From contig CP142451.1 of NCBI GenBank assembly GCA_038049695.1, forward strand, positions 5,454,001 to 5,518,000: a stretch of 64,000 nucleotides of DNA, read 5' to 3'. Within the stretch, counting starts at the first letter, position 1; every line of letters begins with the position of its first letter. The stretch is from Cinnamomum chago. Lineage: Eukaryota; Streptophyta; Magnoliopsida; Laurales; Lauraceae. A program made the position numbers and the translations under genes. Positions 33,066-54,000 of the stretch are shown in pieces. A model generated the notes under the pieces. That model had not been told where the DNA came from. It ran no database searches and saw only the letters and a list, made by a program, of their open reading frames with translations.

Positions 33066-36000
33066 ATGGGGACTCTCTTCCTGAGTCCCATCTCACTCAA
33101 ACCTCCCACCATTTCAATCCCTAGGCAGTACAATTCCACCGTGCTGTTTTTGTCGAAGAAGAAGGAGCAGGAGACGGAGAAGAACATGTTCTTGTGCAGT
33201 TGTGCAGGAACACTGGAAGTGAGACACTACAAGAAAATATACCTTTAGCGGGGGTCAACGACCGCCGCTAAAACATGGATTGGCCCCCGCTAAAACATAT
33301 AGTGGCGGCCAGCTTGGCCCCCGCAAGTCGCCGCTATAGGAAGTGTGGGTATATGTTTTAGCGGCGACTGTTGGCCCCCGCTATTAGGTCTTTAGTGGGG
33401 GTCATTAGCCGCCGGTAAAAAGTTTTGTCGGTTGATTAAATGACGAAAAAAACTTTTAGTGGGGGTCATTGACCGCTGGTACAAGTAAGATAAAGTTGTC
33501 GCTATAAATGGGAAAAAAGAACAAATGGTTTAGCGGCGGTCTGATGGCCCCCACTAAAAGTGGTATTTTTTTTAAAAAAAAAAACTGAATAATACATAAA
33601 CCTGTTTATATCAATTGCATTTCATGTACATAAACCTGTTTATGTCAATCCAAACAAAGTATACCAGCAATTAAAAACAAAACTATTTTTTTATACAAAT
33701 TAAATTGTACATTTTACATCATGTATTAAAACCAAATTGAATAAGACTCATCTCCAATTTCTCGTAGTCTACTTGAATGATGTTTAATGTTATTACACAA
33801 TATAGTCCTTTGAACAACCAGCACCCTACATGAAACATTTTCACACAATTTCATGCTATACAACTGTGGTAACGGATCCCTCTAAAACAATCATCACCAT
33901 CTTAACTCTTCAGTTTCATTTCAAATGGCCTTCACCTTTTTTTTTAGTCACCATCTCTTAGCAATCTTCAAGACAACATCCAAACATCTGCAAAAAGGGT
34001 TGTTAGAATTGAGTTAGCTAACACATTTTTGGTCATCAACTTAATTAAAGACACTTACATTTCAATGTTACTTACTCTAAAGATCTGGCAACTCCATGGG
34101 ATATCCGAATGCATTAATTCCAAGCTATTTTAGTTTCTTGTTTATAGTTCATCACCTAATTGAAACACAACATCAAGATTTCCATTACTACAGTATTTAT
34201 AGATGATTAATCATTGCCATGCTCCACGCGACTGATCAAAATATGATAATAATACTAATAAATAACGCTCTTAAAATAACAAATATTAGAGAACAGAGAA
34301 AATAAAGAAGATAAATATAAGTAGGAACATGTACCATAAATGTAGTCTTACAAGTAAGATATTCAAGATCTCACATCATTTACAGAAACTTTATTACACC
34401 TTCTAGCACCTCTTGCAATCTGCAAAATAACAAAAAAAAATATTCAAACACTTTTGTTGCTCATATATAAAAAAATAAAAACGTAATCACAATTTGAGTG
34501 GCATCTAATAAGGATATATATTCTCAAGCACGAAGAAATCATATAAAGACTAACCTCGCGTCTCTCCTTCCACAAGCAATCTCCAAGATGAATAATTACA
34601 AGCTCATAATCATTTGTTCCGTCCGTAGCAATGATGGCCAAATTCTTTTCAAATTTATTCAGCAAACAATTGGCACAAAAGACTAGTCCATATAAAACAC
34701 ACATAACGTTGTAAGCATATATAAGAAAAAAAAACACTCAAGAATTTTAAAATCTGTTATCCAACATTATAAACAAACTATGCACAAACGACCAAACAAT
34801 CAATTAAAACAAAAATTGAATATCAATCCACTAGAAATCAAACTTGTCCCTTCATGATCACAATCACCATACTAAATGTATAAAGCAAGTTTGTACCTAA
34901 ATTTCAAGCAATACCCAATAAAAAATCTAAATTTAATCACAACCATGAGTGTCCAAAAGATCAAGCGTTCCACACAAATACCCCGTGCCGTGTCGTGTCA
35001 ATAGCGGAAATAACTTTGAAAAAGACAGACCACACAAATACCTCAATACAATTTAATTTAATAAAAAAAAGAGGAAAAGGTGTTGTTTTTCTTCATAATA
35101 AAATGCATAAGTTCAAATACCCTGAAAATCAAACAAAATCTACTGTCAACCCAAGTAAAACCTCCACAGCCCATTTCTATCCCAACCCATCGTTGACAAA
35201 CCCAAATCTACTTGAAAAAAAAATGGAGTTGGGCAGAGGTGGAGGGCTGGGCTGGGCAGCCAAGGCATGCATTCAAACTTTAATAGAGGTGGAGGGCTGG
35301 GCTGGGCTGGGTTGGGCGGCCAGGGCGGGTGGGAGAAGGTGGAGGGCTGGGTTGGATTGGGCGGCCAGGGCGGGTGCGAGAAGGTGGGCTGGGTTGGGTT
35401 GGATTGGGCGGCCAGGGGGGGTGGGAGAAGGTGGAGGAGTGGGCTGGGTTGGGTGGCCATGGCGGGTGGGAGAATGTTGTGGTGGAATTCCCATCGGCCT
35501 GAACCAACCTTCTTGAATCCATGTCAACCAACAACTGAGATGATGGTTCTTCTTATTACAATGATCAGTCAAGTAAAGAAGGAAATGATAAAATCTGCAT
35601 TCACAAATTGAATCATGGTTTTGTAATTCAGCCAAAACTGATTTGTGCAACCCAGTTGGCAAGTCTTTTCGATTTCTATTTTCATTGTTTTTGTTCCAAA
35701 ACATGTTTTAAAACTATGATTGACACATCATCCTCACCATCTTCATCCTCTGTTATGTTATTTTTATCTACAGCTAAAACACAGATTTTATATATACCCT
35801 GTCATATCTTTTAGAAATTCCTAGTCAAAAAAGAAATAGAAAAACTCATGTCATAAGTTCTGATATATTGGCTGATCTTTGGCCCATAAAATGGGTGGGA
35901 GAAGGTAGAGGGTTGGGCTGCATTGGGCGGCCAGGGTGGGTGGGAGAGGGCAGATGGCTGGGCTGCATTGGGCGGCCAGGGCTGGTGGGAGAAGGTGGAT

Positions 36001-39000
36001 GGCTGGGCTGGGTTGGGCGACCAGATGCTGGCTGGGTTGGGTTGGGCGCTGGGTTGGGCGGCCAGATGCTGGCTGGGCTGGGTTGGGCAGCCAGATGCTG
36101 GCTGGGTTGGGTTGGGCGCTGGGTTGGGCGGCCAGATGCTGGCTGGGTTGGGTTGGGCGGTGGGTTGGGCGGCCAGATGCTGGCTGGGCTGGGTTGGGCG
36201 GCCAGATCCTGGCTGGGCGGGTGGGAGAAAGTGGAGGCTGGGCTGGGTTGGCTGCCAGGCAGATGGGAGAAGGTGGAGGGGAGAGAGAGAGAGAGAGAGG
36301 CAGTACCTGTTTGCAAGAGGGAGATGATCACACGAGGAGGTTGACGCCGTTTGCAAGAGGGAGATGACAAGAGGAGAGGGTGATCGCTGTTTGCAAGGAG
36401 ATTCAGACGCATGAGAAGCAAGGAGATTCAGACGCATGAGAAGTTTTGAGAGAGAGAGAGAGAGGCAGTACCTGTTTGCAAGGGGGAGATGATCACACGA
36501 GGAGGTTGACGCCGTTTGCAAGAGGGAGATGACAAGAGGAGAGGGTGATCGCTGTTTGCAAGAAGGAGCTTCAGACGCACGAGAGGTTGATGAAGATCTT
36601 AAGGGTTAATGAACGATATGTTTAATTAATAAAAGTTTTGAGTATTTATTAAGGAAATTCCACAACTTTTAGTGGGGGCTCCTATGACCCCCACTAAAAA
36701 TAAGTTTTAGTGTCACCACATTTAGGGACCCCCACTAAAAATATATTTTTCCCTCGAATATATCGGCCGCCGCTAAAATTAGGACGCTAAAGGCTTAAAA
36801 CTTCCCCGCCAAATTTTGACACCATTAAATGAGGTTTATAGCGGCGGCCAGTGCTATGATCGCCGCTACATGTTAATTAAAATTGTCTTTTTACGGGGGC
36901 CATCGTTGGCCCTCGCTATAAGTGATCTATAGCGACGCTTTTTGCCGGCCTCCGCTAAAAGTTGGCCACTAAAGGTATATTTTCTTGTAGTGAGAGAATT
37001 TCGAAGGTACTATCAATAGAAGATGGAGAAAAAGCTCAGATGGATGCTGGAGGGTCGATTTTATCGCAAAATGAGAAGACCCAAGATGAGATTGCAGTGA
37101 AGGAGGTCATGTCCTCTAATGGGATCGGAATTGTTAGATTCCTCAAAGGGAAGAACTTGCTTATCACAGGCGCTACTGGGTTTCTTGGTAAAGGTGAGCG
37201 AGAGTGTTCTTTTGCACCTTCCTTTGGGGTGGAAAGGGCCGGCTGCCAGTGCAAAGGAAGGCACTTCTATTAAGCGATAAGGCCCTTTCCCTTCCTATTA
37301 GGTGATAAGGGCCCTCACCTCTCAAATGTGCCCCCCCCCGCCCCCCCACACTTTGATCCTTTTTTTTTTCTTTTTTTAAGGAGGGTGTCCAGCCCTTCGT
37401 GCTTGATTAATCCCTAGGAGCAAGAGAAAGTCAAGTAAATATCTTGTGGTTCTAATATAATAGTGCAGTTTCAAATCCTCAACCTCCTAAAACAAATATC
37501 ATGGTCCCAGGCCAACTGCGCTACCTCATAAGAGCGCAGTTTTGATCAATTTAATCAGTAGAATCAATTTATATGAATTCATGCCAAAAGTGGGGCCACT
37601 GGATGAAAAGATCTCCTTATAGCTAAGGATCAGCTAAAAAATATTTAGGTCGGTCAGATTATCTTAGCCCTTGATTAGTTTTAAAGTTAAATGGTATTCG
37701 AACGATAGATTTTTTGAGATTCAATCCAACGGTAAGTAAAAATTAGATGAGTGTAAAACTGGGCCTCATGCCAAATCATTGGATGACAAGAGTGTTGGCA
37801 GCCAAAGGTCGGCCCGTATTGTTCTTATGGAATCCAACTCAAGGGGCCCAGTTAGATACATGTCCATGAGAAGAGAAGGGGGGAGTGGGGGAATAAAGGT
37901 CTCCTTATGGGTAAGGGGTTAGCCAAAAAGTTAGACCCGTCACATTATCCTAGCCCTTGATTTTTTTAATATCTGTCTAATGGTGTTTTAACCAAGAATT
38001 TTTTTTTATAAAATGCAATGGTAAGTGAAAGTTTGATGAGCGTTAAACTGGGCCTCGCGGGCCTTGTGCCAGATCATGTTCTGACAAGAGTGTGAAAAGG
38101 TGTAGGACTGATCATAGGTAAGCCTAACTTGGCCACATAGAGCTAGCTGGACTGCGCATGCAATCCACTCTCATTGAGTATATTTCCAGCATTTAGAGAA
38201 TTTGTGTGACGTCCCGGAGTCCCACATCGACTATAGAGAGGAAAGTGAATGAGGTTATATGTAAAGTTTACACCCTTACCTTGCATGAGGCCTTTTAAAA
38301 CCGTGCGGCCCCGGAAAACGTAAAAACTCCGAAGTTAAGCGTGCTCGGGCGGGAGCAGTACTAAGATGGGTGACCTCCTGGGAAGTCATCGCGCGTGCAC
38401 GCGAGCAAAAGCGGACAATATCATGCATGTGTGAAGGGTGGGGCATTACAAATGGTATCAGAGCCAGGTTCTCTACTAGTTCGAGTGTGGGTCCCATGCC
38501 GTGGGCGGGTCTCCATGTGGGCGGGGACGTGCAACCCTAAGGGGGGTGGAATGTGACGTCCCGGAGTTCCACATCGACTATAGAGAGGAAAGCGAATGTG
38601 GTTATATGTAAAGTTTACACCCTTACCTTGCATGAGGCCTTTTAAAACCATGCGGCCCCGGAAAACGTAAAAACTCCGAAACTCCGAAGTTACCTAGGAA
38701 GTCCTCGAGCGTGCACGCGGGCCAAAGCGAACAATATCATGCATGTGTGAAGGGTGGGGCGTTACAAATTGCTCCTAGCAAGGCAATCACTAACAACAGA
38801 GACAAGCATATGTGAATGTTTTTACTCATCGTAGTTGGACCCCATCAAAAGTTCCCTTTTTTGCCGAAAAATTAAAAACATGCAGGAAGCTGGTCTTCTT
38901 GGTGACTTAATAATTTCGACAATAAGAAGAATGAATAAGTAGCCATCTAAACAACTTTTAATGATTATCCATGTCTTGATATCATGGAAATAACCCATTT

Positions 39001-42000
39001 GTGTCTCCCACATCAGATGATTCCATGTTTAACATATGGAATGTAATTAAATGTTGTACATTTCCTTTTATATTAATGGGGTTTACTGATATATAATAGC
39101 TTTTGTGGGTATGGTGGATTTGTTTATGATAAATGCAGTTCTTATTGAGAAGGTTTTGAGGACAATTCCTGACATGGGAAAAATATTTCTGGTAATCAAG
39201 GCAAAAAGTAAGGAAGCTGCAATGAAGAGAGTGCAAAATGAAGTATGCGAATTCATGTTCATCTTCTTATAGTACATTTGTTCCTTTACTTCTCTCTTCA
39301 TTGCTTGATTACCATCTTTCATCTTTTGTTCAGATCTTGCAAGCAGATCTCTTCAAATGCCTTAAAGAAATTCATGGAGAGTCCTATCAGTCTTTCATGT
39401 TGAGCAAGTTAGTTCCTGTGGCGGGGGATATGAGGAAAGATGATCTTGACATAGAAGTAGACTTAGCAGAAGAGATTGCTAGAGAACTCGATATTATTGT
39501 GAATCTTGCAGCAAATACAACATTAGACGAAAGGTTTCTTCTTATTCTACTACTTAAACTACTTGTTCTTCTTCAATTTACGCTCAAAGGTCTCATCAAA
39601 ATCACAGGTATGATGTTGCTCTTGACACCAACACGCGAGGGACAAGTAGGCTAGTGCGTTTCGCACAGCGATGCAAGAAACTGAAGCTCTTTCAGCATGT
39701 ATCAACAGGTATATTATGGAAAGCCAAAGATTTTTTTTAAATTTTTTTAATGAATATTTTCTATAGCTTTTTGTGTCATTTTGACTTTCTTATAACAATT
39801 ATAGCATATGTGAATGGGCAAAGGGAAGGAAGGGTCTTAGAGAGGCCCTTTCACATGGGAGAAAGCATAGCAAGGGAGAGACTGACTACAGAATCATCAG
39901 CTAATTCCATTCCTGAATTGGATGTTGAAGCTGAAATGGAGTTAATTGGGGCTTCTCAAGAAAATCTGATGGCTAAAAAGATGAAAGCAATGGGTCTAGA
40001 CAGGTGATAAGATTTCATTTTCTATTACTAACCTTGGATTCTTGGCATGTTCCCATTAGGTCATGTTGTTCAATGCTAATTTATCAATATCTTCCATCAA
40101 ATCCACATCAATAACTTCCTTTAATGTCCCTTGTGAATGATATTAGGTACAAACTTAAATTAAAACTAGCAAGACAGGCCCATGCTAAGCTCGGGCTCAA
40201 AAATAAAACTATATCCAATTTGAAGCTATTTTGGATATATTAATTGATGAGAAGAAAGTAAATTAAAATCGAAGAATATTTCATTTATCGATTTTTAGAT
40301 ACTATATATCGAAGTTTATTTAAAAGGATAATGTATAGTAATAATCTCCAAATCAAATTTGAATTGAGTATTGAGATTTGAATTTTTAAAAGATTCAAAG
40401 TCTAAGAGACTTTGGATGGATGAATTAAGAATTGATAAGATAATATCCAAGAGAGAGTCCATAATAATTCAAATTGCAATTAAAATCTAAAATATACTAA
40501 AATTTCTCTCTAAATCGCAATAGATCAAATCAATTGCAAAATCAAGCTTCAATTTCACAATCAATTGCGAAATTGAATAAAATCAAGCTCCAATTTCTCA
40601 TCCAATTGCAAAATTGGAACTCCATTTCGAAATCAAATACTACGTCTATAATATATAATAATTGGTTGTGGCAATTGCTCATTAACAGGGCAAGGATGTT
40701 TGGGTGGCAAGACACCTATAGTTTTACAAAGGCCATGGCAGAGATGTTGGTGAATAACATGAGGGGAGAAATACCACTAGTGATTATCCGTCCTAGTGTT
40801 GTCGAGAGTACAATCAAAGAGCCATTTCCCGGTTGGATTGAAGGAATCAGGTATTTCTGTTCATCTCATTTGCCCACTCATTTTCTAATTTACAGGTTCA
40901 TACAGGCAACTACAAAAAAAAAGTGATCTTTAGCAGCAGAAAAAATATCCTTTAGCGGCAGTGTTTGTTCCACCCTTAAAAGTTTCTTGTATTTCCACTG
41001 CTAAAATTGGCAGAAACCCCTAGGAGGTGGGCCATTTTTTTCTGCTGCTAAAAGTTAATTTTTTTTTTAACATGCTATATCTGGTGTCTACTTATCTTTT
41101 CTTCTTCTTTCTTTTCTTTCTTGAACTGTATCTAACTATGCCCTTGATTCCTTAGTGTGTGGGGCCCATTTCTTGAACATGTTCCTCTTGGTCTCGGCAA
41201 GGGTGCGCTCGGATATGCTGACGTGTGGGAGCCATTTCTCTTGATCTCGGCTACGATCCGATCCATATCGGTCTCGGCACTACGTGCTGGTCTCGGCCAA
41301 ACAGTATTCAGTTCGGCCGCACACCCCGTTCAGTCTCGGCTGTGCAAGACTACATTTGCATCTATCAGCCACGGCCCTGTCAGGGCAGAGCCCAAGGAAG
41401 GCATCAGATGGGACTTCAGCCACCACCAGATCTGGGCAAGATCAGGCCCAACATGGCTAGCATTAAATGCAGCATGGGCTGATCGGACTCGCATTAAATG
41501 CAAAGAGGGCTATGATGGACCTTCATTAATGACTTTGTGGGCTGATGTGACCCAGGTCACATCACCAAGCCCACTGGCACTCACCCAAAACTGTTCCATA
41601 TATAAGGCACGAGCCAAAGGGAGCAGGGGGTAAGCATTCTCACATAGACACCCAGTCTTTCTCCTTCTCCTTCTTCTTCTCCGATCCATTGCTGACTTAA
41701 GCATCGGAGAGCCCTGCGCTGCCCATAGCCAGGGTCCTCTGACCTTTGTCTTTCTCCTCTTTCAGGCTCAGGTCGTTGCAACTATCTCCTCCATGCATTG
41801 AGTAAGTCCTTAGAGGCATCCTGATCTTGTGAGTATATTATTCTTGCACTTACAATTGGCGCCGTCTGTGGGAACGATTTCTATAATCTTTCCTATTCCT
41901 ATTCCTAAACACCATGACGAGGAGAGCTGCGAAAGATGGAGAAACTTCCAAGACAAAGCATGCAAGGCCGCCCCCTGCCAACCAGAGGGCTGGGAAGCAA

Positions 42001-45000
42001 CCAGTCACAGAGGACGATGCTAAACGTGCTCTCATCCGGATCAACGTTCAGGAGCGTGACCTCCGCTCGGAGTCCGCTCCCAGGAAGGGAGACACCCAGC
42101 AGCCTACAGGTCTCCTGACGGGGGGAGACCAGCGGGATAAGTCCCCAGTGGTCGATGGACCACGTCCTTCCGGTCAGGCGGAGGACGTCGAGGACGTTGA
42201 GGATGAAGACTATAATCCTGACGACGACTTGGACTCCACCCTTCTGACGGTTAAAGCACAGAACGAGGCCCTCAAGGAAAAGGATGCTCTGATCCGGCAG
42301 CTCCAGCAGCAGTTGGAAAGAGCTACTGGTTCGGCAAGGCAGCAGCAACGGACTCGTCAGGAGCAGTCCCAGCAGCAGCGGACTCGTCGGGAGCAGTCCC
42401 AGCAGCAGCGATCTCAGCAGCAGCAGCGATCGCCACAACACGAGAGGAGAATTACTCGTGTCACGCGCATCTCTTCCTCAAAGGAGGACCTGAGGGACCA
42501 CTTGAACAGGAAAAGGGACGACCGAACCCGAGATGAAGGCTCAAGCACTAGCCGTAGCTACTCGAGGAAGGCGTCCGAGACCATTCCGGAGGGTATGTAT
42601 CATAATCAGGAATGGCTGGACGCGCACATAAGGGAAACGGTCCAGCGCAACCTGGAAGTAGCCGGCTTCGGCAGAGACCAAAAGAATGCTTGCTGCGACC
42701 CCGTTGATCTCGACGCGTCTCCTTTCTCCCAAGACATCAGGAGATACCCCTTACCGAAGAAGTTCACCGTACCAAGATTCGTCACCTATGATGGGGTCTC
42801 GGATCCAGCTACGCATCTCAGACACTTCTCCCAGAGGATGTCTGTCTGGGGAGACGAGGGTCATCTGAACTGCCGAGTCTTTTCCTCCAGTTTAGGCGAC
42901 CTCCCCCTGAAGTGGTTCTGTGCGCTCCCAGAGGGGTCCGTCTCGAGTTGGCAGCAGCTCCAGCAGTCCTTTATGAAGAAGTTCCAGGCCTACAGAGTCC
43001 TTCCGAAGACAGATGCAGACATCATGGCCATGAAGATGAAGCAGGGAGAGAACGTCACCCAGTTCGTCAAGCGGTTCTGGGCGGTCTACAGTCAGATTGA
43101 GAATTCCAAGGACGAGGTTGCCGTCTTCGCATTTCAGAATGCCTTGCTGCCAGACAACGATCTTCGCAAGGACCTGGCCAGGAACCCGATCTCTTCCATA
43201 GCAGCGCTCATGTCTATCGCCAACCGGTACATCGCCCAAGAGGATGACCAGGTCCGTGCTCGGGAAAGCCATGGAACCGCTCAGAAGGACCGAGGTGAGA
43301 GGCCCCCCAAGAAGGATGGGATACCGTCTCGAAGAGATGAGCCTCGGCGAAGCGAGCGACGAAGAGATGAGTCGGACAGGCGTTGGGCACCTACCAGCTC
43401 GGCAAGGACTCAGATGTTCGCCTCGGAAAGGAGTAAAAGGCCCAGGCTATCCGAGGACGCGAATCGGGGGGTCAACACGGTCTTTAAGATGCCGATCCAC
43501 CGTATCATGTATAAGATCAAGAGCAGGCCGTATTTCAGATGGCCAGAGCCCATGCAAGGCGACCCTTCTATCCGAGATCAGACGAAGTTCTGTTCCTATC
43601 ACAAGGAGGGCGGCCACAAGACTGAAGATTGCAGGATACTGCGGTCGCATTTGGAGAAGCTTGTCCAGGATGGACACCTGCAAGAGTTTGTCAGGAGAGA
43701 AACCAGGGCCGAGCCCCGCGCCGAGACGAGGGGGGCACGACAGCGACGGGACAGAGAAGATAATTGACGTTATCCATTTGGCACCCCCGCCCAAGGGGAG
43801 CAACCAAGCTCGTGCCGAAGCCAGGAAAGCCGCTCACGGCAAGCAGGTCATGGCCGCCGAACTCGGCTCAGCACCGAAAAGGGCTCGGAGGGAGCGTCCC
43901 GAGATCAGGTTCACTGATGCAGATCTGGAAGGGGTGCAGCTCCCCCACAATGATCCCCTGATCGTCACTCTGAAGTTTGACTGCTCTAAGCAGGGCGTGA
44001 AGAATTGCACTGTGAAGAAAGTCCTTGTTGACCCCGGCAGTTCTTCCGAGGTCCTCTATTTCGACAGCTTTCGAAGGATGGGACTGACGGAGAAAGATTT
44101 GCAGGAGGCTCGAGTTCCCCTTATCGGCTTCAGCGCCAAACCTGTTTATCCTAAGGGGAGAGTGACATTCAAGGTCGAGGTCGGTGGCGCGTCTGTCATG
44201 GCAACCTTCATGGTGATCGACGCACCCTCGCCCTACAATGCTATAGTGGGCAGGTCTTGGCTCCACAGCCTGAAAGCAGTCCCTTCCACCCTCCATCAGA
44301 AGCTGAAATTTCCGTGGGAGGGAAAGAGCGGCCGAGTTGAAATCATCACGGTCAGAGGAGATCAGCAGGCAGCCAAGCAGTGCTTGACCGCTGTGGTACC
44401 CGGGGAGCAAGAGCCCAAGAAGGTCAACGTGGCCGAGATGGAGAAAAACCTGGAGCAGGGGCTGGATGAGCTCAGCCGAGATCCAGGTAGGAAGAGCGTG
44501 GAGGATTTGACCGAAATCCGGATCGACCAGAAGGACCCGGATCGGTTCTTCCTAATCGGCAGCCAGCTCGGGGAACCGGAGAGGTTCGAACTGGCCCAGT
44601 TCCTGGTGCAGAACAGAGATGCCTTCGCCTGGACACCTCAGGAGATGCCTGGCGTCGACCCCGAGGTAATGTGTCATAGACTGAATGTTGACCCTTACCA
44701 CAAACCTGTGATGCAGAAAGCCCGCAGGACAGGGGTCCCACAGACCGAAGCCGTCATCGAGGAAGTGGATAAGCTGCTTGAGGCCGGCGCTATCAGAGAG
44801 GTTCAATACCCGACCTGGTTGGCCAATCCGGTGGTCGTCAGGAAGAAGACTGGCAAATGGAGGGTGTGCGTCGACTTTACCGACCTCAACAAAGCATGTC
44901 CCAAGGACAGCTTTCCCCTACCAAAGATTGACCAGTTGATCGACGCCACGGCCGGGCACGACAGAATGAGCTTCCTCGATGCCTACCGCGGCTATCACCA

Positions 45001-48000
45001 GATCCCACTGTTTGGGCCAGACGAAGAGAAAACAGCTTTTATCACGCCCAGGGGAACCTACTGCTATAAGGTGATGCCGTTCGGACTGAAGAATGCAGGG
45101 GCCACCTACCAGAGGCTCGTTACCAAGATGTTCCACGATCAGCTCGGCAAAACCGTCGAGGTCTACATCGATGATATGGTGCCATGGTGGTCAAATCCAA
45201 GCAGGCGCGGGATCATCTGTCAGACTTGGCCGAGGTCTTCGCCACCCTAAAGGAGTTCCGGCTGAAGCTTAACGCCTCGAAGTGCGCCTTCGGTGTTGGC
45301 TCCGGCAAGTTTTTGGGCAGCTTGGTTACACGCAGAGGCATTGAGGCGGACCCAGATCAGATCTCGGCTATCCTCAGGGTGCAGAGTCCCACCTCGGCTA
45401 AGGAGGTTCAGAGGCTTACAGGGATGGCCGCGGCACTGAATCGCTTCATCAGCAAATCTTCAGATAAGTGCCGACCTTTCTTTCAGCTTCTTAGAAAAAA
45501 TTCCAAATTTCAATGGACTCTAGAGTGTGACCACGCCTTGCAGCAGCTCAAGGCTTACCTTTCTTCACCACCGTTGTTGTCAACCCCGACCCACGGGGAG
45601 ACCCTGTATTTGTATTTGGCGGTCTCGGATCATGCGGTCAGCTCAGTCCTCATCCGAGAAGAGGACAAGGTTCAAAAACCAGTATATTATACGAGCAAGA
45701 CCCTTATTGATGCCGAGACCAGGTATCTGCCTCTGGAGAAGCTCGCCTTGGCGCTCGTTAGCGCCTCGCGAAAGCTCTCCCATTACTTTCAAACCCATTC
45801 TATTGTGGTTGTTACGGAGCACCCACTCAAATCTGTTTTCAAGAAGGCTGACTTTTCAGGAAGAATCTCCCGATGGGCTGTCGAACTAGGGCAGTATGAG
45901 ATCCAGTATCAGCCACGGACAGCGATAAAGGCCCAGGTTCTGGAAGACTTCCTTGCCGAGTTTGATTCAAGTTCGGCACCAACCCAGCTCGGCACCGAAC
46001 TGGGGGGCAAGGAGCGTGAGGCGCCCACGGGTTCGGAACAATCACAAGGCCACGCCGATACCCCAGTTTGGAAAATCTTCGTCGACGGATCTTCCACCTC
46101 GAGAAGAGCTGGGGCAGGAGTTGTTCTCCAATCGCCAGAAGGACTGGTCATTGAGCAGGCTCTGACACTGGACTTCAAGGCGTCAAACAATGAGGCCGAG
46201 TACGAAGCCATTTTAGCCGGACTGAATAGCGCCCATATCCTCGGAGCTCAACAGCTGATGGTCTTCAGTGATTCACAGTTGGTGACAAACCAGCTGACTG
46301 AGGACTATCAGGCTCGCGACGACCGGATGGCCGCGTATTTGGCCCTGGCCAAGAAGCAGCTCTCTCAGTTCCACACGGCCGAAGTCAAGCAGATTGGCAG
46401 AGAAGTAAACTCTCACGCAGATGCTCTTGCAAACTTGGCCAGCGCTGTTGAGGCAGGAAGAAAGAGGAGCATCGAAGTCGGATCGCTAGCTGCGCCCAGC
46501 ATTGAGCTCCGTTCACCTCGGGAAGTGTTATGCATCGGTCTCGGCCCGAGCTGGATGGACCCCATTATCACCTACCTTAGGGACGACAGGCTTCCCGAGG
46601 ACAGTGGCGAGGCCCACCGGGTCAGACTCAAGGCAGCTCGGTTCTGGCTATCTCCCGAGGTCAAGCTCTACAGGAAATCGTTCTCGGGACCGTACCTCCA
46701 GTGCGTCCATCCAAGTAAGGTCGAGGACCTCCTTTTCGAGATACACGAAGGAATCTGCGGGAGCCATATCGGAGGAAGGTCCCTAGCCTACCGAGCCATC
46801 AGCCAGGGTTACTGGTGGCCGTATATGCAGAAAGATGCGCAGGTATATGCGAAGAAGTGCGAGAAGTGCCAGAAGTTCTCACACTCTCTCCATCAGCCCG
46901 CGCAGGATCTCAGCCCACTCTCTAGCCCGTGGCCATTCGCCCAGTGGGGGCTCGACATAGTGGGTCCGCTCCACCGAACCCCAGGGAACAAGAGATGGCT
47001 TATTGTGGCGACAGATTACTTCACAAAATGGATTGAAGCAGAGCCACTTTCATCCATCACAGAGCGAGACTCCAAGAATTTTGTGTGGAAGAATGTAGTC
47101 ACAAGGTTTGACATTCCCAGAGCGCTAGTTTCGGACAACGGAACTCAGTTCGACTCTAAACTTTTCAAGACCTTCTGCCAGGAGCTCGGCATCCGAAACC
47201 ATTATTCCACTCCAGCCTACCCACAGAGTAACGGCCAGGCCGAGATCTCCAACAAGGTGATCCTCGATGGGCTCAAGAAACGGCTGGACCAAGCAAAAGG
47301 GAGATGGGTGGAGGAACTTCCAAGCGTCCTATGGGCTTACAGAACTACTCCAAGGCGTTCCACCTCGGCTACCCCCTTCTCACTCGCCTATGGCATGGTA
47401 GCAGTCATCCCTCTGGAGATCGGCCTCCCAACTTTGAGGTCCGAACTCTTTGACCAGGGACAGAACGAAACCAATGTGGCCAGGGAGCTGGATTTAGCGG
47501 ACGAGCGAAGGGAAGCAGCTGCAGTCAGGCTAGCCGTCTACCAGCAGCAGCTGGCCAGGGGCTACAACCAGAACGTCAGAGAGAGGAAGTTCTCTGTAGG
47601 AGAACTGGTTCTTAAGAAGGCTCTCCCAGGGGACAAAAATCCGAATCAAGGGAAGCTAGCGCCGAATTGGCATGGTCCGTTTAAAGTCACCTCCGTTGCT
47701 GGGCGGTCGGCTTATCGGCTCGAAGACATGGAGGGACGGCCGCTACCGAGACCATGGAACGCGTCACATCTAAAGAAATTCTATTTTTAAGTCTGTGCAC
47801 CTGTACAATGCTTCTGGATTTAATGGAACTACATTCGTCCTCGATTTATAGCAATCTGGTGACCTGACAGTGAATGATGTGAGGGTGGAGGACCGTCTAA
47901 GGTCGGCACTCAGCCACCTAGACGAGTTGCCGAAACGGCCCATGTCTAAGGTCGGCACTCAGCCGCCTAGATGAGTTGCCGAAACGACCCATATCTAAGG

Positions 48001-51000
48001 ATGGCACTCAGCCGCCTAGATGAGTTGCCGAAACGGCCCATATCTAAGGATGGCACTCAGCCGCCTAGATGAGTTGCCGAAACGGCCCATATCTAAGGAT
48101 GGCACTCAGCCGCCTAGATGAGTTGCCGAAACGGCTCATATCTAAGGCTGGCACTCAGCCGCCTAGATGAGTTGCCGAAACGGCCCATATCTAAGGATGG
48201 CACTCAGCCGCCTAGATGAGTTGCCGAAACGGCCCATATCTAAGGATGGCACTCAGCCGCCTAGATGAGTTGCCGAAACGGCTCATATCTAAGGCTGGCA
48301 CTCAGCCCCCTAGATGAGTTGCCGAAACGGCCCATATCTAAGGATGGCACTCAGCCACCTAGATGAGTTGCCGAAACGATCAGTGTCTACGGTTGGCACT
48401 CAGCCACCTAGCGAGTGACCTGATCATTCTAAAGGAAGCTCCTAAGGCCCGTCACTCTGTCATTGCATCAGTGGGCTTGACACGATTCTTAGTAGGCCTC
48501 ATAGATCTCGTGGACCTCATCCGCCGAAATGAACGAGGACCTCCGAGGAGGCCAGAGCGCATGGGGCAAACCCTGATCTAGTTAGTTACTCTCATCCGAA
48601 GTCATACACGTTCGCAGGAAAGCACAAAGAAAAGGCCAAGCAAAAGACTTATGAGCCGATGGAAACCAGATAAGACTTTCGTGGACAAAAGGAGGTTTTC
48701 ATTGATGAACCATTCATGTTTACATATAAGACGGTCCATGACCAAAAAATTACATTCGAAAGCAGATCAATTATAAGAGAAGAAAATTCAAAAGAGAAAG
48801 TTAAGACGCCCCAGCACCAACTTCATCAATAATCACTATCGGAGCGTCGTCAGGCTGTGCGACTTCAGCAAGAGTAGATGCCTCGGCTTGAGCTTCGGAG
48901 GGCGGGTGCGCTGGAATCTCGGCAGGGGCTTCGGGAGGAGGAGGTGCGTCAGCTTCGGCAGGGGCCTGAGGTACTGTTGTAGCTGGCTCGAGCTCGGGGG
49001 GTTTGACATACAGCGGGTGCTCTTCATCCGCCCCCATCTCCTTGAGCCCAGCACGGAAACCGCGCTGGTACAGTTTGGAGCTCAGCTTCTTAACTTGATC
49101 AGTATAGCTCCGGCCTGCCTCTGCGGCCCCCTCATGGAAAGCAGCGTCAACCTCGGCTTGGAGTGACGCCTGTAACGTCTCCTTTGCCTTCTTCTCTCCC
49201 TCCAGTTCGGCTGCTAGCCCGACCACCTTTTTCTCCCCGGCAATGAGCTTGGCTTGCAATTCGTAGTGTTCTGATTTGATTTTGCAGAGCTCGCTCGTCA
49301 TCAACTCGGCCTGAGCGTCGAGCTCGGCCTTCTTCGCCCCCACCTCCTCCAGCTCCAAGCATTTGGCCTTAAGTCCGGCCTCGGCCTTCTCCTTCTCCTT
49401 TGTTATTCGGCTCAGGCGGGCACCCTCTTCCGAAATCCGATCCATCACTATCTGAAGCCTTTGGACGCCCTGCAAGGAAACGGGTGAAGAGGTTTTAGTA
49501 ATGTGAAGTCTCTGCAAAACTCAAAAGCAATACCATTGGGAACTCTGCGCTTACCGCGAGCGAATGTTGCATCGCCCTCATAAGCAGTTGGGGGCTGTCC
49601 TCCGCCTTGTGCCTCTCCATGTCTTTTGGGAGAGCACAGGCCCTGCTTAGTGCCGCAATGACAGCGGGGTTCCCCGCCAGCCTATCCTCTATGTTGAGCG
49701 GCCTGCCCCGCCGTAACTCGAGGTCCGGTTTGAAGGCAGCCGGTTCGGCCGATGACGTGGGCGCAGGGGACTGGGCGCGACCCCCCGCCGACGGGGTCGC
49801 TCGTGTCGGAACCTCCACCGCGCTCCTCTCCCTAGCAGCTTGGGAGGGCCGAGGCCCCGACCTCTCCTCTTGGGCGGTCTCCTTCCCCTTAGCCCTTTTC
49901 CTGGGCCTCTCTTCTTCAGGGTTTGCGGAGGGTCGGGCCCCATCGCTGGCAGGGACGACGGCATCGAAGGGGGGCGGATTAGCTCTTGGGGCTGCTGGCT
50001 GCCCGCCAAATGCCGCCTCCTCCAAGTTCAATAGCTGAAGGGAAGGCCTTCGCCTCGCCATGTCCTCGGCTCCGGAGGAATAGTTCTCAACTTCCCTTGT
50101 CGGAGAGTCTACCTCGGCTCCGGAGGTATAGTCTTCAATTTCCCTTATTGGGATGCCCGCGACCACGGCCAAAGTTGCGGACGCTCCCGCAACCGAGACG
50201 GTCCCGCTGGTTTCGGCTAGATCGGGGGCGAAGTTCTCCGGGTTGCCGGATTTCCGTGTATAAGACACGTATCTCGGCTCGTACTTCAGAAGGGAGTAGG
50301 CAGCTCTTGTGTGGTGGCCGCGGTAGCAGTACACCTTGTTCAGCCAAGGTGCGTGCCTCCTCCAACCGTTCAGCTGGGCTTCGCGCTTGCGTTGAGAAAG
50401 GCTTGCGAAAAACAGCCGAGTTAGAATCCGGCAGCAGAAATCAAACATAAGAAAGAAATCGGAAACCCAGGGGGTTAGGTCTTTACTCGGTGGAGTCCCG
50501 AAGCGTCGAGGGACTCGGACCCTCCTAGCTGCTTCGGTCTCGGTCTCGCCGAACTCCCAGTTTCCCGAGACGAGCAGGCGGTCATCTCCGGCGTATTTAT
50601 TAGAGTCCTCCAGCGCCGTGACGAGGGGTTGGCACCTCGCCTTGACGCGAAGATAATAGGTGCCCGCCTCCCTAGACTTGCAGAGGTCATATATATCCTC
50701 TATATCATGGACGCCGAGGCTGATGTCTAGAATCCTATTCAGCTCGGCGACGCCCATGATGATCTTATACCCATTGGGCATTAACTGACAGGGGCTAAGG
50801 TTCCAGGTCTCCAAACAAGACCTAAGAAGGGGGGCCAAGGGGAATCTGACCCCACCCTCGATCACGGCTATCAAGGGAAACGGCATCCAGCCGTTGTGAA
50901 ATGAGTAGATGGGGGGGTCGGCTGCCATGATCCGGACATCGCCTGGGATCATGTAGACTCTCCTAAGAGTTGCCAGGCCCGCCTGGGAATCTATCCAGTG

Positions 51001-54000
51001 AGTAAAAATCCCCATTTCTGGATCTAAGAATTCTAAGGGTCCTTACAGCAAGAGGTGGTGAACGGAGGTACCCCTAAGAAACCCTAGGGGCTGGGTCTGG
51101 AATGTAAATGAAGGAGGAGGAAGCGGAAGAAAACTCACTGGTTCGACGGGGCAAAGTCAGACTCCGACTGACGGATGTGGGCGACTACTGCTGTGAAACA
51201 GTAGGAGGTCTGGTCCTAGTCCGGCGGCGCTGGTTCTAGCAGAAAGCAGAAGTTCAGGCAGAGAGCAAGAGAGTCCAGGAGCAAAAATGATAGGAGGAAG
51301 AAGACGAAAGCGTATATAAAGGGCAGAAATGGGCGCCATCCCGGAATTCGAAGCGGGACACGCGTGAGATGTCGCCTCGGCTTGCGTCGCACACCCCCTC
51401 AAAAAGACAAGAGAGCCTACCAGGCAATAACGCGTGGCGCTGTTGCGATGATGGTTCGCCTTCCCATACTAATCATAGCCCCGCATTTATTGCCCCCTTT
51501 ATTATCTCTGGCAGACGAAGCAGCGGCGGCGTCTGGCGCCGAATGAGTCAGAACCCTTAAACAAAAGCGGATGGAAGGCGAGCACTATCCGTCTCGGGAG
51601 ACCGGTTCAGTTCTTAACCCTAGTGCGGGGGATCAGTCCAGCTCTTAACCCTAGTGCCCGAGAGAGCCCTAGAGGTCAAGAACTGAGGGGCTATTGTGTG
51701 GGGCCCATTTCTTGAACCTGTTCCTCTTGGTCTCGGCAAGGGTGCGCTCGGATATGCTGACGTGTGGGAGCCATTTCTCTTGATCTCGGCTACGATCCGA
51801 TCCATATCGGTCTCGGCACTACGTGCTGGTCTCGGCCAAACAGTATTCAGTTCGGCCGCACACCCCGTTCAGTCTCGGCTGTGCAAGACTACATTTGCAT
51901 CTATCAGCCACGGCCCTGTCAGGGCAGAGCCCAAGGAAGGCATCAGATGAGACTTCAGCCACCACCAGATCTGGGCAAGATCAGGCCCAACATGGCTAGC
52001 ATTAAATGCAGCATGGGCTGATCGGACTCGCATTAAATGCAAAGAGGGCTATGATGGACCTTCATTAATGACTTTGTGGGCTGATGTGACCCAGGTCACA
52101 TCACCAAGCCCACTGGCACTCACCCAAAACTGTTCCATATATAAGGCACGAGCCAAAGGGAGCAGGGGGTAAGCATTCTCACATAGACACCCAGTCTTTC
52201 TCCTTCTTCTTCTTCTTCTCCGATCCATTGCTGACTTAAGCATCGGAGAGCCCTGCGCTGCCCATAGCCAGGGTCCTCTGACCTTTGTCTTTCTCCTCTT
52301 TCAGGCTCAGGTCGTCGCAGCTATCTCCTCCATGCATTGAGTAAGTCCTTAGAGGCATCCTGATCTTGTGAGTATATTATTCTTGCACTTACACTTAGGA
52401 TGATGGATCCAATTATTACATACTATGGCAAAGGCCACCTTACAAGCTTTCTAGCTGAGCCGGAAGTACCCGTTGATATTGTAAGTAGTAGAAATGTGGT
52501 TTTTATGTACCTGAATTGTGTTTTTTTCTATCCTTACACATGGTTGGTTGCATTTGTTTCAGATTCCTGTGGACATGGTCGTAAATGCCATGTTGGCTAC
52601 AATGGCGAAACATAGTGCCAGGATGGAAGAGACGCAAATCTATCACATCACCTCATCTGTAACAAATCCTATTTTGTGCCAAGACCTCTCTGGATATTTC
52701 TTTGAGCACTTTGAGGCTTTTCCATACTTAGATAACAATGGGAAGCCAGTTCATGTTCAACCTATGGAGTTTTTCAGCTCTGAAGATGAGTTACTCTCTG
52801 ATATTTGGACTAGTGCTAATCACAGGAGAGGGGAAGCCTCTATGGCTGGTTTGGCTGAAAAACCATCTCAAATGGTAGAGAGAATATGGAAGAAACAGGC
52901 AGAGCAAGTAAAGTATTTGAGCACTATATACCAAGCATATTGTTTCTATGCAAGAAGGTAAGACATTCTTGTCATTCATCAGAGCCTAGTCCCAACTATG
53001 TTGGAGTCAGCCTAGAATTCATGTTTGGGTTGTGAAATTTTTTTTACACCGGCTGTCAACCTACCTAACACAACACTCCTCATTTATCCGTGCTTGGGGC
53101 CGATGGTAAAACCTAGCCGTGAAGCTTGACCAAAGAGTTGTGCCCCTGTGAAACATATATAACAAGTGCATAACTGTTCTTAGCATAGTTTAAGTGAAAC
53201 TAGGAATCTTATTTACATTAGGATGTGGAGATACTGATGGTGGGGTCTGTAAATTGAGGTGTGCTAGCTCACACGATCAAAGGATCACAATAGCCACACG
53301 GTTGTCATAGAACCACAAATACTTACCATGTTTATAATGAGTTTTGCCCATCTAGCAGGGCGAGATGAAGTGTGTCAAGGAAAAACACTTGCACACACCA
53401 CTCACTCTCAGTGTCCCTGTCACGACCCGGACCCGAGATCAGAGTCATTATGGTTAACCCCCGGGTCGCGATGCTCATACTTACTCCCGTAAACCCCGTT
53501 TAACCGAAGTTACAACGAAGCACTACAAGGGATCTTACATACGTACCTGTCAATGTACAGTGCGGAATGTACAAGAATATACATTGACAAATGAATCATA
53601 TACATAACTTTGAACTGTAAAGTTCATTTACATTGTTTCAGACACCTAATAACAACCACTGCTTATTTACAATACAATGCAGGGTATAACATTTACATTA
53701 CTTACAATACCAAAATGATTATACAAAATAATTTCCAAAAGACGCTATGTTTTCTTCTCTTAAATCACGTCCACTCCGCTAGACCTCCTGGAGGTAGCGC
53801 ATGGGCCTCCTCCGCTGCCTGGACGGTCTCCGAGGGACCGGCACGGGTAGTTGAGCCTGTAATATCATCAGTAATACCGTGAACACGACGGTTCAACAAG
53901 GTATACATATATTGACAGCATGTCCATAATTCCTAACCATTCATTGTTTAACGATGCTAAATCATTCATAATAAACATCAATAACAATGCCTATAACAAT

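Follow-up and report, generated by a model that had tools for sequence, protein, structure and literature searches.

The window analysed here, a 64,000-nt stretch of Cinnamomum chago DNA, contains a fatty acyl-CoA reductase gene on the plus strand (33066..56479). A ten-exon model drawn by eye gives a coding sequence of 1764 nt including the stop and a protein of 587 aa. A Pfam search found both domains that define an MS2/DPW-type reductase, NAD_binding_4 (E 1.7e-77) and Sterile (E 6e-16), the latter from profile position 20 of 93. A solved member is matched as well: a phmmer search with a 366-aa part of the host protein retrieved PDB 7eoz chain A, named "Fatty acyl-CoA reductase", with an E value of 5.9e-134. 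The label "MS2/DPW-type" is our assumption; we take 7eoz to be rice DPW, and the subgroup name depends on that. A scan of the window with FAR motifs detected no FAR pieces besides this gene, only two chance-like matches (55594 on the plus strand and 9248 on the minus strand).

Exon 7 of the ten (40689..40850, plus strand) ends with AATCAG|GTATTT, its last base being 40850, as the first-pass annotation had placed it, and exon 8 (52399..52480, plus strand) begins with GATGATGGAT. The joint between them lies near residue 373, inside a single NAD_binding_4 match covering residues 108–410, and the stretch across it (GIR-MMDP) aligns with 7eoz_A without a gap (PFPGWMEGNRMMDP), small gaps occurring elsewhere in the phmmer alignment. 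One open frame runs through the chosen exons; the open gene model and the 7eoz_A alignment rule out that the frame is broken where exons 7 and 8 meet. The open frame is little proof in itself, since about six neutral substitutions would be expected in the coding sequence since the insertion described below. In addition, the start of exon 2 was picked for frame continuity, and homology gives exon 1 no separate support.

Exons 7 and 8 are separated by an 11,238-bp Ty3/Gypsy LTR retrotransposon (41156..52393) in the same orientation as the host gene (plus strand). Its LTRs are 699 bp each (5′ LTR, 41156..41854; 3′ LTR, 51695..52393; both on the plus strand), begin with TG and end with CA, and their alignment contains five substitutions and no indel. 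The element is flanked by copies of CTTAG, a target duplication within the 4–6 bp characteristic of Ty3/Gypsy. The Pfam domains Retrotrans_gag, RVT_1, RT_RNaseH, RVT_3, Integrase_H2C2 and rve were identified; gag, RT, RNase H and integrase follow one another in the Ty3/Gypsy order, spread over three separate ORFs. The region between the end of the last pol ORF (47790) and the start of the 3′ LTR (51695) is 3,904 bp long, which fits the range of 2,933–6,566 bp given for the pol-3′LTR region of Retand elements (PMC11963269). Tandem repeats in this region, a trait of about half of Retand elements, are present as well, as an array with a 49-bp unit in 10.5 copies (47896–48411). An antisense ORF (49495–51015, 506 aa) matches PF04195 (Transposase_28) with 16.1 bits and E 0.014, below the cut-off of 26.2 and with no match at E 0.001. 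Given this architecture and the sub-threshold PF04195 match, the element can be described as Retand-like. A blastn search of the 64-kb window revealed no further LTR copy for comparison beyond the two LTRs.

The first copy of CTTAG (41151..41155, plus strand) occupies the old acceptor position, where the next base is now the T of the LTR, and the second (52394..52398, plus strand) directly precedes exon 8. The preceding base is C at the first copy and A at the second, and the following base T and G, respectively; the duplication is therefore exactly 5 bp, and a misread LTR or duplication boundary is rejected for the same reason. The chance of a random 5-bp match at these fixed places is 1/1024. 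Joining the flanks rebuilds the empty site as ...CCCTTGATTCCTTAG|GATGATGG. The element is preceded by 305 nt of intron 7 (40851–41155), complete with donor and plausible acceptor. The duplication reported by the first-pass annotation is exact to the base, and its placing of a Gypsy element where intron 7 meets exon 8 is borne out by the LTR ends, the duplication and the gapless joint in the 7eoz_A alignment.

Two of its statements need adjustment. Exon 8 has indeed lost its native upstream context; however, the long pyrimidine run that had been emphasized lies about 33–63 nt upstream of the old junction and not at it, and a branch-like CTAAC (41132..41136, plus strand) is located 20 nt upstream of the old intron's final base. 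The claim that the splicing AG owes its survival solely to its place within the duplicated target is overstated: an insertion further upstream would also leave the AG beside exon 8. It holds for targets straddling or abutting the border, and the duplication matters here only since the exon border is where the downstream cut was made.

What now precedes exon 8 is the last ~40 nt of the 3′ LTR, followed by the host CTTAG. This LTR end contains a branch-like CTGAT (52360..52364, plus strand), whose A is 35 nt upstream of the final base of the intron, and a moderately U-rich stretch. A CTRAY motif at 18–45 nt occurs at 842 of 9135 sampled positions (9.2%) and at just one of the seven other acceptors; CTGAT is therefore weak evidence. 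Scored with untrained plant acceptor weights, the rebuilt acceptor reaches 4.60, compared with 5.04 for the empty site, beats two of the seven acceptors of introns 2–6, 8 and 9, and exceeds 90.2% of the scored plus-strand AGs in the window. When these weights were randomly perturbed, the rebuilt site was worse than the empty site in 1176 of 2000 trials and at least as good in the remaining 824. Of the 953 AGs of intron 7, 73 equal or exceed the rebuilt acceptor in score. That it is not clearly worse than its predecessor may be explained by the branch-like and U-rich context that the LTR end brings along, a point that the first-pass annotation overlooked. Its predicted strength is about that of the lost acceptor, the host gene may still be spliced, and splicing to exon 8 through the rebuilt site is plausible.

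The insertion, the duplication and the coding joint at exons 7 and 8 are directly visible. The following course of events would account for them. A Retand-like element integrated at a target cut with a 5-bp stagger, the downstream end of the cut coinciding exactly with the boundary between intron 7 and exon 8. Gap repair would have copied the target to both ends of the element, so that exon 8 is still preceded by CTTAG. The LTR end, with CTGAT at 35 nt, the U-rich stretch and the host CTTAG, would act as a replacement 3′ splice site, and the element would leave within an 11.5-kb intron 7 (40851–52398) in at least some transcripts. Higher-scoring acceptors in both LTRs would compete with it and yield truncated products. 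We consider it rather probable that the LTR end works as the replacement acceptor and that the element is spliced out in some transcripts, the splicing part of this reading being predicted from sequence.

The first-pass annotation also overlooked the main competitor acceptors, which are predicted in the LTRs. With the untrained weights, the site whose last base is 41765 in the 5′ LTR (TTTGTCTTTCTCCTCTTTCAG; plus strand) scores 12.16, the joint highest value among the 953 AGs of intron 7, and an identical site ends at 52304 in the 3′ LTR (plus strand), with CTGAC 23 nt upstream. A pyrimidine-rich run accompanies the site, and the 3′ copy, 94 nt upstream of the rebuilt acceptor, outscores the latter in all 2000 perturbations. 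The old AG (41154–41155) is still present, as had been stated, and retains its CTAAC; however, this CTTAG copy scores only 1.73 with the same weights, compared with 5.04 for the empty site, since its next base is now T. It was therefore set aside as the main rival acceptor, and if it were used, 159 LTR-coded residues would precede the stop. Given the far higher scores inside the LTRs, 40850|41766 and 40850|52305 are likelier chimeric junctions than the 40850|41156 proposed earlier.

If these LTR-internal acceptors captured exon 7, transcripts would read into the LTR and meet a stop after 12 LTR-coded residues from either site, or end within the element, and the allele would be a strong hypomorph or null. 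Apart from the scores, premature polyadenylation in heterochromatic introns, described from rice osibm2 mutants for the genes altered there (PMC7145194), is in line with this outcome. On the other hand, each LTR has a donor-like GTAAGT 36 nt beyond the acceptor, which could still connect to exon 8, and Gypsy elements are under-represented in most of the TE-derived splicing events described in Arabidopsis (PMC10241880). We regard such capture as unlikely, though as the most serious of the alternatives.

Slightly less likely is a gene already in decay, in which a CACTA-like element (33225–36992; 24 identical end bases, AGA duplication) disrupted the region of exons 1 and 2 and the Gypsy element then hit a locus past constraint, where splicing at 52398 would be biologically meaningless. 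With the CACTA-like element removed, exons 1 and 2 are out of frame and a stop follows soon; introns 2 and 9 carry further insertions. The coding sequence is nevertheless open when this element is taken out via GTGAGA...TGAG, and both Pfam domains are matched. Among three AGs tried at the CACTA-like end, TGAG at 36994 alone keeps the frame, and its low score (0.88) means that the allele may be non-functional anyway.

A working copy with an empty site, the insertion being limited to one haplotype or an assembly join, is improbable. In its favour, the analysis covers a single assembled sequence; the perfect duplication, clean LTR ends and five LTR differences speak against misassembly, although they are no argument against a second, empty haplotype. 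More doubtful still is the idea that the LTR cassette (acceptor, 36 nt, GTAAGT) together with the host CTTAG adds a 12-residue exon to some transcripts, through a possible in-frame, stop-free micro-exon (52305..52340, plus strand) and a potential 58-nt intron from GTAAGT at 52341 to CTTAG, while in addition a promoter in the 3′ LTR, where a TATA-like motif is present at 52138, drives a short mRNA whose translation from the ATGATG opening exon 8 gives a 214-aa C-terminal protein. The three rivals of LTR capture, gene decay and an empty-site copy overlap one another and the preferred reading, and their probabilities are not exclusive.

Returning to that reading, splicing through the rebuilt acceptor, the locus offers a clean and datable natural case: the LTR end has replaced the native branch region, with the final five bases of the intron and the exon itself unchanged. 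Since only the upstream context was swapped, the share of a plant 3′ splice site that lies beyond the last five bases becomes measurable. Pollen wall formation in other plants requires genes of the MS2/DPW type, so a splicing failure could show as male sterility. Events of this class are in themselves to be expected: under assumed genome sizes and element counts, between 40 and 100 insertions per genome should, before selection, hit a 5-bp target that contains an AG.

Among the literature matches listed, as judged from titles and the beginnings of abstracts, none concerned an LTR element on an acceptor with a duplication rebuilding it, which does not prove absence; one paper listed, PMC11782384, reportedly deals with direct repeats near intron splice sites, a close theme. 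Maize waxy alleles with intronic retrotransposons and altered splicing are known; these too are plant LTR elements in introns, but lie inside the introns and not on the acceptor. In Introners, target-site sequence duplicated by transposition gives a splice site, for example the 3′ site in Chrysochromulina, and, as here, the element supplies the rest (PMC9860276). However, Introners form new introns in many short copies (PMC9860276), whereas one full-length LTR element has enlarged an existing intron here, 305 nt of which, with the donor, already precede it. According to the abstract of a study of ONSEN in Arabidopsis, most full-length insertions of this LTR element in genes are spliced out as introns; in its results, three of eight homozygous intronic insertions were intronized and seven insertions were partly exonized (PMC12112155). 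The present case is similar in that a genic full-length LTR element would be removed with or as an intron; unlike it, ONSEN is a Copia element, listed as ATCOPIA78, and the passages on it describe no insertion exactly on an acceptor (PMC12112155). Splice sites from target duplications and the splicing-out of plant LTR elements are thus both already known, and the case is mechanistically ordinary.

The host gene, a fatty acyl-CoA reductase gene on the plus strand (33066-56479), was modelled by eye as ten exons, which form an open frame of 1764 nt with a stop and encode a protein of 587 aa; the start of exon 2 was picked for frame preservation. In Pfam, NAD_binding_4 covers residues 108-410 (profile 1-258 of 258, E 1.7e-77) and Sterile covers residues 507-580 (profile 20-92 of 93, E 6e-16). 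A 366-aa part of the product matches the PDB entry 7eoz_A, "Fatty acyl-CoA reductase" (E 5.9e-134), which we take to be the rice pollen-wall enzyme DPW; MS2/DPW genes are required for pollen walls. Small gaps occur elsewhere in this alignment, and the joint of exons 7 and 8 (GIR/MMDP) is gap-free, giving independent support for the proposed exon 8 start at 52399.

Direct reading of 40850-41155 and 52394-52399, together with the LTR alignment, bears out the coordinates of the first-pass annotation. The LTR retrotransposon is 11,238 bp long (41156-52393) and oriented like the host gene; its target duplication is CTTAG, exactly 5 bp. The 699-bp LTRs differ at five positions (four transitions and one transversion; K 0.0072), which dates the insertion to ~0.28 to 2.4 million years ago at assumed rates of 1.3e-8 to 1.5e-9 substitutions per site per year. 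With some 6 neutral substitutions to be expected across the CDS over that time, the open frame is no evidence of post-insertion selection. Just upstream of the insertion, intron 7 carries a MITE-like inverted repeat (40914-41067; imperfect arms of 32 nt, 88% complementary, 90 nt between them).

When the flanks are joined without the element, intron 7 ends in ...TATCTAACTATGCCCTTGATTCCTTAG/GATG, with a branch-like CTAAC 20 nt ahead of the last intron base and a long pyrimidine run about 33-63 nt upstream of the old junction. Exon 8 is now preceded by ...CCTGATCTTGTGAGTATATTATTCTTGCACTTACA/CTTAG. The first-pass annotation held that the acceptor AG survives only through the duplication: the duplication does place CTTAG before exon 8, but the AG would also be intact after an insertion farther upstream. 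The downstream cut is the exact exon 8 border, the nearest position sparing the exon. Scored with assumed plant acceptor weights, the empty site reaches 5.04 and the rebuilt acceptor 4.60; in 2000 random perturbations of the weights, the rebuilt acceptor equalled or exceeded the empty site in 824 and fell below it in 1176. Compared with all 15-mers of the window, the LTR-supplied stretch from -20 to -6 scores above 83.3% and the native one above 87.4%. The rebuilt acceptor outscores two of seven other acceptors of the host gene, intron 1, whose end lies in a CACTA-like element, being left out. As a branch site, CTGAT in the LTR end (52360-52364, 35 nt upstream) is only suggestive, because CTRAY, the branch consensus assumed here, occurs at 18-45 nt for 842 of 9135 sampled positions and for one of the seven other acceptors.

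Only four target positions per acceptor put the AG inside a 5-bp target. Assuming a genome of 0.5-3 Gb, 1.0-1.5e5 introns and 0.5-5e5 LTR elements, 40 to 100 such insertions are calculated per genome before selection, and target duplications span 1008 of the 1024 possible 5-mers, according to excerpts of a plant LTR-element survey (PMC6317226). Such a landing is thus unusual to see, yet not surprising.

The element contains Pfam domains of Gag, RT, two RNase-H-type regions and integrase. Its pol looks broken, since the reading frame changes within the RT region near 45184-45250. A tandem array with a 49-bp unit lies at 47896-48411, and the 3.9-kb region between pol and the 3' LTR holds antisense ORFs of 238 and 506 aa (minus strand, 48801-51015); the 506-aa ORF (49495-51015) has a weak Transposase_28 match (16.1 bits, cut-off 26.2). 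The length of this region and the array fit the Retand lineage of PMC11963269, and the weakly matching antisense ORF may be that lineage's Transposase_28 ORF; the element is Retand-like by architecture rather than by an RT tree.

The LTRs supply candidate competing acceptors that the first-pass annotation did not name. Scoring 12.16, TTTGTCTTTCTCCTCTTTCAG/GCTC (41765 in the 5' LTR, 52304 in the 3' LTR) is joint top among the 953 AGs of intron 7 and has CTGAC 23 nt upstream; it exceeds the rebuilt acceptor in all 2000 perturbed weight sets. Reading past it meets a stop after 12 LTR-coded residues. A/GTAAGT (52341) lies 36 nt beyond it, and an LTR exon of 36 nt could be spliced in frame between exons 7 and 8, adding residues LRSSQLSPPCIE; the last intron would then be 58 nt, short by the size limits assumed for plant introns, and end in the duplicated CTTAG. 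The old acceptor copy (41151-41155) retains CTAAC and now scores 1.73; its use would add 159 LTR-coded residues before a stop. A TATA-like motif (41599), donor-like GTAAGC (41630), the acceptor (41765) and donor-like GTAAGT (41802) follow one another in the LTR at 41599-41802 and in the matching part of the 3' LTR, and the leader of the element itself may undergo splicing.

A second problem in the host gene, independent of the Gypsy insertion, is a CACTA-like element between exons 1 and 2 (33225-36992), with an AGA duplication and ends identical over 24 bases (CACTACAAGAAAATATACCTTTAG). Its clean removal leaves exons 1 and 2 out of frame. Three AGs at its end were tried, and the frame is kept by just one, TGAG at 36994 (with donor GTGAGA); its score is low (0.88), so the allele may be impaired whatever happens at exon 8. 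Intron 2 also carries a small LTR element (38205-38766), presumably Cassandra-like, with two repeats that each start with TGTGACGTCCCGG and end in TTACA; a 5S rRNA match lies within it (38292-38402; RF00001, 38.4 bits, gathering 38), and its first repeat is followed by TGGTATCAGAGCC, which we take to be a tRNA-Met primer site. In intron 9, a solo-LTR-like insertion (53418-55714; TG...CA) has GTCCC on either flank.

Taken together, exon 7 is probably joined to exon 8 at 52398 in some transcripts, in which the element would leave with an 11.5-kb intron; part of the transcripts would be expected to be lost to the LTR acceptors. In rice, genes that have heterochromatic introns and change in osibm2 mutants are prematurely polyadenylated within those introns (PMC7145194), so the machinery at work there may also be needed for expression across the enlarged intron.

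ONSEN is a precedent for splicing around plant LTR elements: per its abstract, most full-length insertions in Arabidopsis genes are spliced out as introns, and among eight homozygous insertions the Results excerpt counts three intronic ones that were intronized, and reports partial exonization for seven insertions (PMC12112155). Arabidopsis also has TE-derived splice sites, and in most of the splicing events concerned Gypsy elements are under-represented (PMC10241880). Among the matches listed, open-licence papers represented mostly by title or abstract start, there was no description of an existing acceptor rebuilt by the duplication of an LTR element. Introners acquire splice sites from target duplications, and in some families the insertion site provides the 3' one (PMC9860276); this locus would likewise use duplicated target sequence as a splice site. 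Duplication-derived splice sites and splicing around plant LTR elements are thus known, and the locus would add another instance.
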